This document shows, piece by piece, positions 10,962-16,964 of a stretch of DNA of 33,936 nucleotides (position 1 is the first letter of the stretch; every line of letters begins with the position of its first letter). The DNA is from Thermogemmatispora sp. (GTDB lineage Bacteria > Chloroflexota > Ktedonobacteria > Ktedonobacterales > Ktedonobacteraceae): the NCBI RefSeq assembly GCF_019683635.1, contig NZ_JADGIA010000030.1:1-33936 (forward strand), written 5' to 3'. The position numbers were made by a program, and so were the translations under genes. The notes below the pieces were generated by a model. The model was not told the DNA's origin and searched no databases. It saw only the letters and a list, made by a program, of their open reading frames with translations.

Positions 10962-11062
10962 TCACTGTGCAGTGCCACCGCAGCACCCGAAGCAAGCTCG
11001 GGGCTACGGCTTCACTGTAAAGCTGGGTGACTAGCTCAATCGGTAGAGCAAGCGACTCTTAA

Positions 11063-11709
11063 GTGCGCCGTTGTGCTCACAGCGTCCCTGTCGGGAGAGA
11101 CCCGACGCCACTGGAGCAGACGTGGCTAAAGCACCATCTTACCTCGCGCCGAAAGGTTGCGGGGGACAACAGCATGATGGAAAAGTCGTTGTTGGAAGCC
11201 TCTCGCAGCTCATTGTCGTGCTCATCCGCCTCCCCGAGGTGGAGGGAGAGCCGATAAAATGATGCCAGCTTCTGCAACGGCAGCTAGGCCGTATATGGTC
11301 AAGCCCGCCAGGGGTTGAATCCCTCGATAGCCTGCCCTGATGTTGTCAGCTGTGATTAGGAGGGCTGGCAAATGCTCCCATCAGGTGGGCGGTTGTCCGC
11401 GAAGGGAGACCTACGTACGGAGCGGGGCGTTGTGGGAACTACGGGATCACCTAAAAGCTACAGGGTTTTTCTCGTCCCCTGTGGCTCATGGTGACGGAGC
11501 GCCCATAGTACTCAAACGATCAGCGTAATGGCTGATACATGGGGAAGGGGCGCAGGAGAAGTGTCCTTCAGGCGCTTCTCTGGAGAGCCGGATGCATTGA
11601 AAGGTGCACGTCCGGTTCGGGAGGGGATGACCAGCATAGTCCAGGCCGGACCTGGTTCAGTCCCGGCTTGAGACTCCCGCCGTCAGGTGATGCTGGCTGT
11701 CTGCTTCAC
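11063..11709 (+). mobile_element. ORF-less group II intron inside tRNA-Lys
   Basis: The 647-nt insertion starts GTGCG, the group II 5' consensus, and ends CTTCAC, the same last six bases I recall for Ll.LtrB. Domain V is at 11585-11618, with domain VI following to the 3' splice site. A hairpin with a 6-bp stem (11345-11350/11364-11369) presents TTAGGA (11356-11361) in its loop. This pairs at all six positions (one G-U) with the last six exon bases TCTTAA, giving EBS1-IBS1. The base before it, A11355, can pair with T11710, the first base of the 3' exon, as in a delta-delta' contact. A possible EBS2 GTCGTT (11185-11190) matches exon AGCGAC but is less certain. No reverse transcriptase/maturase is encoded, so splicing would need a maturase supplied in trans or self-splicing. 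Confidence 0.92.
11585..11709 (+). ncRNA. Group II intron domains V and VI
   Basis: Domain V (11585-11618) folds as GAGCCGGA/TCCGGTTC, a T opposite an ACG bulge, GCATT/GGTGC and a GAAA tetraloop. The catalytic triad AGC is at 11586-11588. Domain VI has basal pairs GGAG (11620-11623) with CTTC (11704-11707). These are followed by G-U, G-C, G-U pairs (11624-11626 with 11700-11702), an internal loop, and CCAGCAT (11631-11637) with ATGCTGG (11690-11696), topped by a CCAGG/CCTGG hairpin. The single bulged base at the branch position, seven from the 3' end, is G11703 rather than A. Confidence 0.88.
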
Positions 11710-11846
11710 TCGCTAGGTTCAGGGTTCGAGTCCCTGGTCACCCACTATGCATTGTCTGCTGCATCAGTCCGTGAGCCCGCCTGGTTTATCGGCTCATGGC
11801 CTGCTCGGCCTGAGATCGTCAGAAAGAATGCTCATGGATAACGAAG

Positions 11847-12541: not shown

Positions 12542-13432
12542 GTGTCTGTCATCTACTGGCTGGCACGTGGCACAAGTGCGCTCGCGGGGCGTACTCCCCG
12601 GCCCTTGCGCCATGCCATCGGGGCGACGGTTGGAACGGCAAGCTACCTGGCCTGGCGCTCGAAACGCCGGGTGACGCAGCGCAATATGGCTCAGGTCCTG
12701 GGCCGCCCTCCCAGCGATCGTACTGTGCGCCGCTTGGCGCGTGCCTCCTGGAGCAACTACGGGCGCTACGCCTCAGATTTCTTGAGCTTCGCCCACCTCG
12801 ACATCGAGGCCATTGAGCGGCAGGGGCGCGACCTGACGCGAGGAGCCTCCTCCTGGCGTGAGTACCTTCAGCAGGCGCTCCAACCCGGTCGCGGTGTGAT
12901 TCTTACCACCGCTCATTTTGGCAACTGGGACCTGGCCGGCGCCATTATCGCCCGCGAGGTGCCCTTCTCGGCTATCGCCGAAACCTTCGCCGATCCCCAG
13001 CTGAATGCCCTGGTGCAAAAGCAGCGCCAGGATAAAGGGATCGTCATTATCCCAATGGAGCGCTCGGCCCGACCGATTTTGCGCGTTCTGCAGCAAAATC
13101 AGATGCTGGCCATCGTGATCGATCGCCCCTTGATGGAGAACGAAGGCGTTCCCGTGAGATTCTTCGGGCGCACAACGTATGTGCCCGCTGGTGCGGCAAG
13201 GCTGGCGGTAAGGACTGGAGCCGCGATTATGTCCGGTTTCGTCTGGTACGGCAGGCGGGGACAGCACTATATGCGCGCTTTTCCCCCCGTCTTCCCTCGC
13301 ACTGAGGGAGACCGCGAGGCCGAAGTCGTGCGCCTGACCCAATATATCTTTGATACGCTAGAGGAGATGGTCCGTAGCTATCCCGATCAGTGGTATATGT
13401 TTCGCCCATTCTGGCCTGCTGCTGATCCCTAG
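12542..13432 (+). CDS. Lysophospholipid acyltransferase family protein (LpxL/PatA-like), first copy
   Basis: A 296-aa protein of the HtrB/LpxL and PatA superfamily, which transfers acyl chains from acyl carriers to glycolipids on the inner membrane face. The active-site motif is HFGNWD (H125-x4-D130). Also present are VIDRPLMENEGVPVRFFGR, matching the family's second block, and a C-terminal YPDQWYMFRPFW motif. The GTG start is preceded by GGAGGAG with 6 nt spacing. It is nearly contiguous with the ArsR gene. As this lineage is not expected to make lipid A, and because of the downstream PimA-like and phosphatidylinositol-synthase-like genes, a PatA-like role in acylating a mannosylated inositol lipid is the better guess. 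Confidence 0.85.
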   Translation: MSVIYWLARGTSALAGRTPRPLRHAIGATVGTASYLAWRSKRRVTQRNMAQVLGRPPSDRTVRRLARASWSNYGRYASDFLSFAHLDIEAIERQGRDLTRGASSWREYLQQALQPGRGVILTTAHFGNWDLAGAIIAREVPFSAIAETFADPQLNALVQKQRQDKGIVIIPMERSARPILRVLQQNQMLAIVIDRPLMENEGVPVRFFGRTTYVPAGAARLAVRTGAAIMSGFVWYGRRGQHYMRAFPPVFPRTEGDREAEVVRLTQYIFDTLEEMVRSYPDQWYMFRPFWPAADP

Positions 13433-13767
13433 CTGCGGCGAAAACCACCTGACTGCTCTCTGCATTCCTGCGAGGGCGGCCAGAGAGAGAAAGGCAGCTC
13501 GGGCGACGCGACAGCAAAGGCGCAGATGCTTGCCTGGTCCTGCTTCTGGAGCGGGTCAGGAGATCACCTACGCCAGAGACGGGACAACGGAATGCAGAGA
13601 GAACGTCATGCCAGCCCAGGTAACTGGCTGGTCAGATGCCAGCGCGACTCTCAGAAAGGGACGCTTCTCGGCAACTGCAGGCAGCCAGGAAGCCGGGCCA
13701 GGTATTGCGAGGCAACGGGCCACGATCTTTATGAAAGAAGCGCTCCTTGAGCCAGAAAACGACGACG
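13433..13767 (+). other. Gap between the two acyltransferase genes, no gene seen
   Basis: These 335 bases hold no recognisable gene, RNA or clear promoter. Open frames here continue out of frame into the next gene and show no family similarity. A 14-base string, AAGCGCTCCTTGAG, just before the second acyltransferase gene also occurs near 12050; this may be chance. Confidence 0.4.
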
Positions 13768-14724
13768 ATGTATCTGCTATTTCGCCTTGCCGCTGTCATT
13801 GTGCCGCGCCTGCCGCGTCGCTGGCTACCTGCGCTGAGCGTTCTACTGGGCTGGCTTGCCTGGATGATTGCCTTCAAAGCGCGTCGGCAGGCCACCGTCA
13901 ATATGCTGCACGTGCTGGGGCCAGAGATGCAAGCCACGCGTCCCGGACGCCGGCGTCTCCGACGCACCGTGCGTCGAATGTTTATCAACAATGCACGCAA
14001 TTATCTCGAAGGCTTTTGTTTGCCCTATGTACCCGTCGAGGAGATTGTCAGCAATATCATTCCCGGGGGCGAGGAACATCTGGCCGCCGCTCTGGCCCGT
14101 GGCAAGGGCGTGCTGATTGTCTCTGCCCACTTTGGCCCTTTCGACTACCTGAGCCAATGGTTGGTTGCCAGAGGCTACGAGCTGGTGATTCCGGTCGAGC
14201 AGCTCAAAGATCGACGCATGCTCGAACTGATGCTGAGCCTGCGCTGCAGCCACGGCATCAAATATCTTCCTGTAGGGAATGGCACGGCCATGCGGGCGAT
14301 TCTGCGCACGCTGCGCCAGAATCAACTGGTGCTCATTACCGCCGACCGGGCCGTAGTGGGCCAGAGTGTCGAGCTGCCTTTTTTTGGCGCCACGGCTCGC
14401 CTGCCGGGAGGACCGGCCATGTTGGCACAGCGCACAGGCGCGGCTCTCGTTGGCGCCTTCGGCTGGCGCCTGGAGGGCACGCGCATGCAGGGCGAATTTA
14501 CGCCGATTTCCCTGGCGCTTCCTGAAGAAGAGCAGCAGAATCCCGAGGCGCTCATGCGCTCAATCGTGCAGGTCATGGAACGCTACATCCGGGCCCATCC
14601 CGAGCAGTGGCTTGTCTTCGCTCCTGTCTGGTTGGATCATGCTACTGCGGGCGCAGAGGATCAAGGGCGCCAGATCGGGGCCGAGGAGAGTGGGGAAGAA
14701 GAGGGCATGGTCGGCTGCCAATAG
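13768..14724 (+). CDS. Lysophospholipid acyltransferase family protein, second copy
   Basis: A 318-aa member of the same superfamily as the preceding gene, with HFGPFD (H121-x4-D126), ITADRAVVGQSVELPFFG and HPEQWLVFAPVW. The two proteins share layout but differ enough to be distinct enzymes, which suits two successive acylations, or one acylation plus another function. The ATG gives an N-terminus (MYLLFRLAAVIV) like the family's membrane-associated first helix. A TTG at 13747 with a weak purine stretch upstream would add seven residues, so the start is uncertain. A charged tail of about 25 residues follows the last motif. It sits in the putative inositol-lipid cluster and is followed by the PHP gene after 88 nt. 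Confidence 0.83.
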   Translation: MYLLFRLAAVIVPRLPRRWLPALSVLLGWLAWMIAFKARRQATVNMLHVLGPEMQATRPGRRRLRRTVRRMFINNARNYLEGFCLPYVPVEEIVSNIIPGGEEHLAAALARGKGVLIVSAHFGPFDYLSQWLVARGYELVIPVEQLKDRRMLELMLSLRCSHGIKYLPVGNGTAMRAILRTLRQNQLVLITADRAVVGQSVELPFFGATARLPGGPAMLAQRTGAALVGAFGWRLEGTRMQGEFTPISLALPEEEQQNPEALMRSIVQVMERYIRAHPEQWLVFAPVWLDHATAGAEDQGRQIGAEESGEEEGMVGCQ

Positions 14725-14812
14725 GTTCGTCCGCTGAGTGAGTGGCGGTAAGGAGCGAATGCTTCTTCTCCTCCGCTTAAGTAGCACACCTTCTCAATCC
14801 CGAAGGAGTAGT

Positions 14813-15634
14813 ATGGCTAGACATATGAGCAACAGGATGACTGAGGAATTACGACCTGCCAGCCTGGCCAGGCGCCTGCTAGGCCGCCATCGGCAAATGA
14901 CGGCTGTCGAGGCCTCTCTGGCTGGAAAGCTGGGTCGGGCCGATGTCCATATTCACAGTACCTACAGCGATGGGACAGCTACAATTGAGGAGATTCTGGC
15001 GTACACCGAGCGCTTTAGCGACCTGGACGTGATCGCCATCACCGATCACGATTCCATTGAAGGCTCGCTACGTGCGCGCGACCTGTGGACCAGGGGCCAC
15101 TACCGCTTTGACTACATCGTCGGTGAGGAGGTCAGTACGCGCGAGGGGCACCTGCTGGCCCTCTTTATCGAGCAGCGCATTCCGCCCGGGCTGAGTATGG
15201 AAGAGAGCATTGCCCTGATCCATGAGCAAGGGGGCCTGGCCATTGTCGCCCATCCCCTCCATCGCCTCTTCCGCCATAGCTGCCAGCGTGAGGTGCTTGA
15301 TCGTCTGGTCAGCTCAGATAGCGCGCGACTCGACGGTATCGAGACCTGGAATGCCAGCTTCTGCGGCATCTATGCCAATCAGGTGGCCATGCGCGCTAAT
15401 CGCCGGGTCTATCGCCTGCCCGAGGTTGGCAACAGCGATGCCCATACACTCAATGCCATTGGACGCGGCTGCACCTGGTTTGAAGGGAAGACAGCCCACG
15501 ATCTGCGCGCATCGCTGCAGGCCGGGACTACAGCCCCTGGCGGAAAGCTCTGGCAGATGTACGATTATCTGCAGCTGGCTCAGTATCACTTTAACAAGCG
15601 AAATCAGCGGAACCGTCGCGTCTTTGCGGCGTGA
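14813..15634 (+). CDS. PHP-domain phosphoesterase (TrpH/YciV-like)
   Basis: A 273-aa polymerase-and-histidinol-phosphatase-fold protein. Metal-binding motifs are DVHIHSTYSDG (H46, H48, D53), ITDHD (78-80 with D78, H79), GEEVST, IVAHP and GNSDAHT. Family members hydrolyse small phosphoesters such as nucleoside 3',5'-bisphosphates; the substrate cannot be read from the sequence. The ATG at 14813 is chosen because GAAGGAG (14802-14808) lies 4 nt upstream. In-frame GTG 14738 and ATG 14759 would add 25 or 18 residues with no domain content. Its place between acyltransferase and glycosyltransferase genes suggests, but does not prove, a role in the same lipid pathway. Confidence 0.87.
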   Translation: MARHMSNRMTEELRPASLARRLLGRHRQMTAVEASLAGKLGRADVHIHSTYSDGTATIEEILAYTERFSDLDVIAITDHDSIEGSLRARDLWTRGHYRFDYIVGEEVSTREGHLLALFIEQRIPPGLSMEESIALIHEQGGLAIVAHPLHRLFRHSCQREVLDRLVSSDSARLDGIETWNASFCGIYANQVAMRANRRVYRLPEVGNSDAHTLNAIGRGCTWFEGKTAHDLRASLQAGTTAPGGKLWQMYDYLQLAQYHFNKRNQRNRRVFAA

Positions 15635-15681
15635 AGTGCGCAGAGCCTTCCTTTTGGAAGAGGCAAGCTCTTGCGAAAGTC

Positions 15682-15690
15682 TGGTAAAAT
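15682..15690 (+). promoter_or_regulatory. Extended -10 promoter (TGGTAAAAT) before the glycosyltransferase
   Basis: TGG plus TAAAAT at 15682-15690 is a TGn-extended -10 with no good -35, matching the style of the sites at 9186 and 17425. The expected start near 15697 leaves a leader of about 98 nt. Confidence 0.5.
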
Positions 15691-15794
15691 GTTGTATGGC
15701 GCCTTTGGCTGAGTAGGAGGGGACCGTGGCCGGGCTTGCGTAAGGTCCAGGGGATAGTCGCGTCTCTACAACATTGTAAGGCAGGGAGCGACTC

Positions 15795-16964
15795 GTGAAA
15801 ATAGGTCTCGTGACTCCATACGACTGGAGCTATCCTGGTGGAGTGCGTGAACATGTCCGCCATTTGGCGCATGAATTTCGCAAAATGGGTCTGGAGGTGC
15901 GCATCCTTGCCCCGGTCTCGGGAGATGATGAGCGGCTGGCTGAGGAGCAAGTCTATAAGATGGCCGGGGCTTCTCCCGTTCCTTTTAATGGTTCAATTGC
16001 GCGTGTGGCGCTGAACCCCTATCTCGGTCGGCGCGTGCGCTCTGTACTGCAGCACGAGCGCTTTGACATTATTCACCTCCATGAGCCGTTGATTCCGGGT
16101 TTGCCGCTGGCTGTGCTGCGTTTCTCGCGTGCGATTAACGTAGGAACATTTCACGCCTTTGCTGCTGCCAGGATCACCTCCACGCCCTATCTGGCCTATG
16201 CATCGCTGCATCCTTTCCTGCGCCCTTACTTTCGCCGGCTGGCCGGGCGCATCGCCGTTTCACCGGCGGCCTACCAGTTTGTCTCACGCTACTTTCCGGC
16301 GGACTATCGCCTGATCCCGAACGGGATCGATCTGGAACGTTTCAACATCTGGAACCAGCCTTTGCCCTGGTTCATGGATGGGAAGCGGAACATCCTCTTT
16401 GTCGGGCGGTTTGAGAAGCGCAAGGGCGCCAAGTACCTGTTACGCGCTATCCCCATGATCCGCGAGCGCTATCCCGACACACGGTTTATTCTCGTGGGTG
16501 AAGGCGGGTTGAAGCGCGGTTTCGAACGCTTTGTTGAGAAGCAGGGCTGGCAGGACGTGGTTTTTGTAGGCCGCGTCTCAGCGGAAGAACTACCACGTTA
16601 CTTCGCCAGCGCTCACGTCTTCTGCGCGCCCTCGATCGGCGGCGAGAGCCTGGGCGTGGTCTTGCTGGAGGCAATGGCCTCCGGTGTGCCCGTGGTGGCC
16701 AGCAACATCGAGGGCTATGCCACAGTCATCACACATGGCCTCAATGGCCTCTTAGCGCCCCCACGCGATAGCCTTGCGCTGAGCATGGCCATCTGCCGCC
16801 TGCTGGAAGATGAGCCGCTGCGGCGCCGCCTGGTTGAAGCTGGGCTACAAACAAGCCAGCAATATGCCTGGCCGCGGATCGCCCGCCGTGTGGTGGACTA
16901 CTATCAGGAGCTGCTGGAGGAGCGTCAGCTACTCCATACCCTGCGCGAGCGGGAGCCGGTCTAG
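15795..16964 (+). CDS. GT4 glycosyltransferase, PimA-like
   Basis: A 389-aa GT-B-fold retaining glycosyltransferase. The N-terminal VTPYDWSYPGGVREHV resembles the acceptor-side motif of PimA-type mannosyltransferases (YSFDVPGGVQ-like). Further on are LIPNGIDLERFN, NILFVGRFEKRKG and the donor-binding E-x7-E motif in GGESLGVVLLEAMASG (about E283 and E291). PimA adds the first mannose to phosphatidylinositol on the cytoplasmic face. MshA, the first mycothiol enzyme, is a related GT4 and cannot be excluded, but proximity to a CDP-alcohol phosphatidyltransferase and two acyltransferases favours a lipid acceptor. The GTG start has GGGAG six nt upstream. The length is normal for the family. Confidence 0.87.
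   Translation: MKIGLVTPYDWSYPGGVREHVRHLAHEFRKMGLEVRILAPVSGDDERLAEEQVYKMAGASPVPFNGSIARVALNPYLGRRVRSVLQHERFDIIHLHEPLIPGLPLAVLRFSRAINVGTFHAFAAARITSTPYLAYASLHPFLRPYFRRLAGRIAVSPAAYQFVSRYFPADYRLIPNGIDLERFNIWNQPLPWFMDGKRNILFVGRFEKRKGAKYLLRAIPMIRERYPDTRFILVGEGGLKRGFERFVEKQGWQDVVFVGRVSAEELPRYFASAHVFCAPSIGGESLGVVLLEAMASGVPVVASNIEGYATVITHGLNGLLAPPRDSLALSMAICRLLEDEPLRRRLVEAGLQTSQQYAWPRIARRVVDYYQELLEERQLLHTLREREPV

Follow-up and report, generated by a model that had tools for sequence, protein, structure and literature searches.

ORF-less group II introns at the anticodon loop of tRNA-Lys(CTT) and other tRNA genes of Thermogemmatispora and their mobile bacterial relatives

A tRNA gene that is interrupted at its anticodon loop raises the question of whether it can still give rise to a tRNA and, if so, what kind of element interrupts it and how this element might be removed. 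Such a gene is found in the window, the 33,936-nt stretch of Thermogemmatispora DNA analysed here, which belongs to a 5.4-Mb draft genome in 361 contigs. ARAGORN identifies no tRNA in the window when introns are disallowed and a single tRNA-Lys(CTT) at 11025–11745 on the forward strand when they are allowed, with a 647-nt intron after base 38 (11063–11709). The 5' exon (11025–11062; tRNA positions 1–38) comprises the 5' strand of the acceptor stem, the D arm, the 5' strand of the anticodon stem and the entire anticodon loop (CTCTTAA) and is 100% identical across six Thermogemmatispora species; the 3' exon (11710–11745), which starts at position 39 and finishes with the acceptor stem, is likewise identical in the six species. 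Excision exactly at the GTGCG…CAC ends of the intron restores the tRNA, with the joined exons giving a complete 74-nt cloverleaf. The preliminary description of this DNA, made from the sequence alone, had proposed a tRNA-Lys(CTT) split by a group II intron at 11063–11709, which is borne out by ARAGORN and by the Rfam model RF00029. It had also placed the interruption in the anticodon stem; the two strands of the stem are indeed split apart, but the site (38/39) is the junction between the loop and the 3' stem strand and lies inside neither strand. Just downstream of the tRNA gene, at window positions 12542–16964, this Chloroflexota genome encodes a protein resembling lipid A biosynthesis acyltransferases (Lip_A_acyltrans) and a group 1 glycosyltransferase.

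A check of the intron against the Rfam group II models, as advised in the preliminary description, gave a match of RF00029 (group II domain V/VI) to 11583–11709 with 49.4 bits against a gathering score of 40 (E 5.7e-7). The GTGCG 5' end, the AC 3' end and the domain V recognized earlier were all confirmed and agree with the GUGYG/AY ends of group II introns. Domain V (GAGCCGGATGCATTGAAAGGTGCACGTCCGGTTC; 11585–11618) has the two-helix form with the catalytic AGC at 11586–11588 and also gives sub-threshold matches to plastid domain V families; it is followed by a linker and domain VI (11619–11709), delineated using RNAfold and comparison with relatives. A putative EBS1 (TTAGGA, 11356–11361), found at the equivalent place in 28 introns, is complementary, with one G–U pair, to IBS1 (TCTTAA, 11057–11062), which corresponds to tRNA positions 33–38 and includes the anticodon CTT. 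The delta base, A11355 directly before EBS1, pairs with T11710, the first base of exon 2, as in group IIA introns. The domain VI hairpin is present, with a G (11703) as the bulged base at −7 in place of the usual branch-point A expected 7–8 nt from the 3' end; relatives have A at −7. Loss of the branch-point A is known among splicing-competent group II introns and does not exclude membership. By the sequence features examined the Lys intron thus classifies as a group II intron, with the branch-point A as its sole departure. No reverse transcriptase or maturase ORF was found within the intron or, as discussed below, in the genus, and the locus lacks this mark of a mobile retroelement. A bulge–helix–bulge intron of the archaeal/eukaryal tRNA type was considered and rejected on the basis of size and domain V.

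Group II introns hold their 5' exon through EBS1, and the pairing of delta with the 3' exon is the group IIA rule. In all 28 introns compared, which interrupt eight tRNA species, the EBS1 6-mer lies at about intron position 210–305 and complements tRNA positions 33–38 with at most one G–U pair. Its sequence follows the host gene: TTATGA for Ile (target TCATAA), TTTGGA for Trp (target TCCAAA), TTAGGA or TTAAGA for Lys(CTT), TTAGAA for Lys(TTT), TTAGGA for Arg(CCT), GTGTGA for Val, TTTTAA for Leu(TAA) and ACCTAA for Leu(TAG). Among 40,320 reassignments of EBS1 to tRNA over the eight types, two reach the observed score, namely the true one and a swap of identical EBS1s. The delta base pairs with exon base 39 in 24 of 27 introns, the exceptions being the three Thermogemmatispora Trp introns tested, which are orthologous. 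A column scan for an EBS3–IBS3 pairing of the IIB type gave the delta position as its top candidate outside the exon, and the later comparison bore this position out. Since EBS1 matches positions 33–38 and delta pairs with base 39, the intron appears to read the anticodon loop itself, and exon recognition is, on these predicted pairings, group IIA-like. A structure was derived from 18 tRNA introns aligned together with their 5' exons; in this same alignment, its 31 predicted pairs in the 5' part of the intron are formed in 95% of cells compared with 80% after shuffling (none of 500 shuffles being as good) and 33–46% in a sliding control; 17 of these pairs have changed on both sides. A promoter-like or chance origin of the signals was rejected in view of the orthologues in six genomes and of this covariation.

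The same arrangement occurs throughout the genus. RF00029 gives exactly three matches in the genome of the window, each in a tRNA gene at 38/39, the other two being tRNA-Trp(CCA) with a 607-nt intron and tRNA-Ile(CAU) with a 673-nt intron. Six Thermogemmatispora genomes were compared, including T. carboxidivorans PM5, which is closed in one contig, T. tikiterensis T81 and T. aurantia A1-2, the set being mostly drafts; each of the six has exactly three matches, all resolved as the interrupted Lys, Ile or Trp gene, so that the search of Ktedonobacteria for further split copies suggested in the preliminary description found the orthologous Lys locus interrupted in the five other genomes. The interrupted CAU gene is labelled 'Met' by ARAGORN. 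Its acceptor stem has C4–G69 and C5–G68, similar to tRNA-Ile2, a pattern that we take to be an identity rule for this tRNA, and separate initiator and elongator Met genes are present beside it; on both grounds it was assigned as Ile2. Mean identity among the six species is 100% for the joined Lys exons, 100% for Ile and 99.5% for Trp, and 87–90% for the introns (87% for Lys).

In the closed T. carboxidivorans genome, the 46 uninterrupted tRNA genes were each inspected, and the tRNA set is complete when the interrupted genes are counted. Trp, Ile(CAU) and Lys(CUU) exist there solely as interrupted genes; an intact second copy of tRNA-Lys(CTT), named beforehand as evidence that would speak against a working split gene, is not present. 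The search for further tRNA-Lys genes did yield an intact tRNA-Lys(TTT), which could read AAG by wobble, so that the Lys(CUU) gene taken by itself could be dispensable, as the preliminary description had allowed. Such dispensability is implausible for the sole Trp and Ile(CAU) genes. Because Trp, Ile2 and Lys(CUU) occur only as interrupted genes in a closed genome, which would otherwise have no tRNA-Trp, we infer that the introns are spliced in vivo in Thermogemmatispora, the single-copy state being the strongest indirect evidence. A separate peculiarity concerns tRNA-Arg(TCG), which in the genome of the window (L044:300–450; G000:C271:6241–6306) retains its 3' part and lacks a normal 5' half; the T. 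carboxidivorans gene has a normal 5' half (L107), and the loss reflects a rearrangement or an assembly fault.

An assembly or binning artefact could be suspected in a draft of 361 contigs, yet five further assemblies, made independently and including a single-contig one, show the same three interrupted genes, and this explanation has a negligible probability. The Lys locus could instead be a dead insertion, that is, a tRNA-Lys(CUU) pseudogene broken by a mobile element, with tRNA-Lys(UUU) reading AAG by wobble. The intact tRNA-Lys(TTT) gene would permit this, and two other Ktedonobacteraceae (G006 and G009) offer a precedent in Val(CAC) copies that are split at 38/39 and have decayed second exons, with an intact tRNA-Val just downstream. 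In Thermogemmatispora, however, divergence of the intron among the six species reaches 18% without a single change in the Lys exons, the splice sites, EBS1, delta and domain V are retained, and the sibling introns occupy the sole Trp and Ile(CAU) genes, which makes a dead insertion very improbable. The tRNA-Lys(CUU) gene is, to judge from its sequence and that of its relatives, very probably functional and interrupted after position 38 by an ORF-less group II intron that serves splicing only and has IIA-type recognition.

How such an intron might be removed bears on the branch point and on the maturase. The domain VI bulge 7 nt from the 3' end is an A in the intact mobile relatives that were folded and in most ORF-less relatives; in Thermogemmatispora the Lys and Ile introns have a G there, and the Trp introns have an A at −8. 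A maturase was sought in the six Thermogemmatispora genomes, mostly drafts with one closed, by homology searches with the intron-encoded protein (IEP) of a relative and with PF01348 (Intron_maturas2), and in the window's own genome with PF08388 (GIIM), a profile ill suited to this protein clade, and none was found; most other members of the Ktedonobacteraceae have several IEPs each. In tRNA introns of five other Ktedonobacteraceae (G007, G013, G015, G016 and G020), 1–7 extra bases lie between position 38 and the GUGCG-like start of the intron, and EBS1 still complements positions 33–38 despite them; in G015 and G016 (a Trp intron in the latter) the branch A is missing too. An altered 5' splice site is a known variant, described for a fungal rRNA intron (PMC4424553).

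In the proposed mechanism, the precursor would fold as a group II ribozyme without a cognate maturase, perhaps aided by general RNA chaperones. EBS1 would pair with anticodon-loop positions 33–38 and delta with base 39, and these two pairings would place both splice sites at the end of the anticodon loop; two transesterifications, or hydrolysis replacing branching, would then ligate the exons to give a normal tRNA. Because the branch A is a G and no maturase was found in the genus, maturase-free folding and a first step by hydrolysis, or by branching at the G, suggest themselves, and a hydrolytic first step is the one we infer for the Thermogemmatispora introns. Removal might alternatively require a trans-acting protein, either an unrecognized maturase or a host RNA-binding protein, so that the intron would not be self-splicing. 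For most bacterial ORF-less group II introns, a related IEP is believed to act in trans (PMC4424553), and the loss of the branch-point A would fit such a requirement, whereas the searches for Intron_maturas2, GIIM and IEP homologues described above were all negative and C.te.I1 provides a precedent for an ORF-less, self-splicing intron in a genome without an IEP (PMC4424553). Dependence on a protein is thus a reasonable possibility, although somewhat doubtful.

The Thermogemmatispora introns have relatives within the family. A covariance model of exon 1 and the 5' end of the intron, searched in the Ktedonobacteraceae, detected related ORF-less introns at 38/39 in five tRNA species of other members: Ile in six genomes (G007, G011, G013, G015, G020 and G023), Trp and Arg(CCT) in G016, and Lys(CTT) and Lys(TTT) in G013. 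In G013 (L054, L080 and L081) a gene of each of the two tRNA-Lys isoacceptors thus carries an intron, with the CTT gene spread over two contigs. The intact alleles asked for in the preliminary description also exist, as uninterrupted Lys(CTT) genes are present in at least eight members of the family. Across 400 Chloroflexota genomes from 224 genera, no match above 45 bits was found outside the Ktedonobacteraceae. Weak matches to a model, R1 (40–95 bits), in Ktedonobacter and others were set aside, those inspected (L161–L164) being group II introns outside tRNA genes. In L161 and L188 (Ktedonobacter racemifer, G044), one group II intron seems to sit within another, each time at the same internal point (..GTAGTA|GTGCGCC). 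In G008 (C397, L159) an intact tRNA-Ile(CAU) has beside it a piece of an Ile intron that contains stretches of N and whose 5' exon is broken, probably a scaffolding fault.

Mobile forms of these introns were found both within and beyond the family. In Dictyobacter vulcani, tRNA-Arg(CCT) is cut at 38/39 by a 2.6-kb intron encoding a 620-residue RT–maturase–HNH protein. A pattern scan over 85,000 species was used for mobile relatives, the counts of which are lower bounds because the scan pattern is exact. A tRNA-Ile(CAU) split at 38/39 by an intron with a full IEP occurs in Pseudomonas fragi, Marinobacter maroccanus and Psychrobacter sp.; the same gene is split in Burkholderia sp. Bp8963 and Microvirga splendida, in both of which the intron reaches a contig end, and in an Acidobacteria metagenome-assembled genome by an ORF-less copy so near the Ktedonobacteraceae type that mis-binning is possible. 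Megaplasmids carry a split Leu(TAA) in Pseudomonas sp. FeN3W and a split Leu(TAG) in P. silesiensis, and the split Val(CAC) copies of G006 and G009 have been mentioned above. The joined outer exons fold as the expected tRNA except in the two Val cases (for Burkholderia and M. splendida no joined tRNA could be built). The split tRNA-Leu of P. silesiensis lies within a tRNA array (Ser, Thr, Pro, Leu and Met-type) on the 1.17-Mb plasmid pPL1 (L245). Two pattern matches in viral contigs were ordinary tRNAs, and no Leu-type match was found there; E. coli genomes contain no similar DNA, and RT relatives in phages are below 60% identity.

Five of the mobile introns contain an intact tRNA gene of their own (55–75 bits with RF00005), and its anticodon is that of the host gene in five of the five determinable cases: Arg(CCT) within Arg(CCT) in Dictyobacter, CAU within Ile(CAU) in P. 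fragi and Burkholderia, Leu(TAA) within Leu(TAA) in FeN3W and Leu(TAG) within Leu(TAG) in P. silesiensis. The Marinobacter intron retains the 5' half of a CAU tRNA at the matching position, as a remnant, and no internal tRNA was found in the Psychrobacter intron. The spare tRNA lies upstream of the IEP ORF in four introns and downstream in P. silesiensis, two positions that point to more than one acquisition. A pattern search found no other intact Ile2-like CAU gene in Marinobacter or Psychrobacter, so that splicing seems to be required there. The spare tRNA may act as a rescue copy, and spare tRNAs with the anticodon of the host gene suggest a safe route for a retroelement into an essential gene. 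In a Microvirga lotononidis plasmid (L246:4050–4200) a CAU tRNA separates a group II IEP from the corresponding domain V, which itself seems to be interrupted by another intron starting with GTGCGCC, a possible twintron. We propose that the series ran from mobile to fixed: the Thermogemmatispora copies would have lost their ORF and come to fixation in three tRNA genes, of which two are essential.

In a tree with LtrA-like and other IEPs, a clade with 100/100 support unites the tRNA-intron IEPs, a Microvirga IEP that has a CAU tRNA beside it and three IEPs of Ktedonobacterales located at non-tRNA sites; the non-tRNA members indicate that insertion into tRNA genes is common in the clade and not exclusive. 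The Pfam profile MatK_N matches the D. vulcani tRNA-Arg IEP above the gathering score (E 1e-10) and six further clade IEPs at E 1e-4 or better, seven in all within the E 1e-3 limit. Eight IEPs from elsewhere in the tree gave no match, although their RT domains score equally or higher. These introns and the plastid trnK/matK intron could, in place of separate entries into tRNA genes, go back to one ancestor already inserted in a tRNA gene, as the group IIA-type delta pairing and the confinement of MatK_N matches to the clade among the IEPs compared would suggest. The IEPs of the two Leu introns, Marinobacter and G009 nevertheless give no MatK_N match at E 0.001, the plastid site is 37/38 (PMC4033280) compared with 38/39 here and members of the clade also occur outside tRNA genes, all of which render common ancestry unlikely; the MatK_N similarity is a lead towards plastid trnK and no more. 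Taken together, the data probably describe a bacterial group II retroelement lineage specialized on tRNA anticodon loops, in which EBS1 is an anti-anticodon, which often carries an intact tRNA with the anticodon of the interrupted gene and which has degenerated, more than once, into fixed introns that lack a maturase and interrupt essential tRNAs. That the plastid trnK/matK intron should in addition stem from this bacterial lineage, a part drawn from profile similarity, makes for an improbable combination.

Bacterial tRNA introns have been described as group I (PMC4033280, PMC3984707), and one sentence mentions group I and group II together, citing Vogel and Hess (PMC4033280). The open-access literature yielded no earlier account of a bacterial tRNA gene with a group II intron, or of a group II intron carrying a spare tRNA. 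The paper by Vogel and Hess is said to be a work on barley plastids. The main novelty is the wider pattern across relatives, group II introns in tRNA genes being otherwise known from plant chloroplasts. Bacterial group II introns lie mostly outside housekeeping genes and are rarely IEP-free, and the sole ORF-less one recorded from a genome that lacks an IEP is C.te.I1 (PMC4424553). Here they are fixed in the sole tRNA-Trp and tRNA-Ile(CAU) genes of a cultivable bacterial genus in which no maturase was found, and since these genes exist only in interrupted form the translation of all Trp codons and of AUA would depend on a ribozyme. The relatives offer a natural series from mobile element to obligate intron that parallels plastid trnK. 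Automatic annotation overlooks the interrupted genes, so that the tRNA sets of such genomes appear incomplete.

Among known systems, the plastid trnK intron (trnKI1, of group IIA, encoding MatK) likewise belongs to group II, interrupts the anticodon arm of a tRNA-Lys gene and has IIA-type recognition, and distant IEP-bearing relatives of the present intron match MatK_N; the plastid trnK gene is essential (PMC4424553). It differs in that the present intron lies in a Lys(CUU) gene on a bacterial chromosome, at 38/39 and not 37/38, without an ORF and with no maturase found in the genus; with no MatK-type ORF in domain IV and a different site, the Lys intron is not, on its sequence, classed in the plastid trnK lineage. 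The group I introns of cyanobacterial tRNA-Leu(UAA), tRNA-fMet and Azoarcus tRNA-Ile are likewise ribozyme introns in the anticodon arm of bacterial tRNAs and belong to another ribozyme class, whereas group II domains V/VI and an EBS1–IBS1 pairing are present here. C.te.I1 of Clostridium tetani shares the lack of an ORF and a genome without an IEP (PMC4424553), while the introns described here occupy tRNA genes, two of them essential, at three loci fixed throughout the genus. Mobile introns of the Ll.LtrB type encode the same protein domains (RT–maturase–HNH) as the mobile tRNA-intron relatives, which in contrast form a separate clade, are mostly inserted after tRNA position 38 and in several cases carry a spare tRNA.
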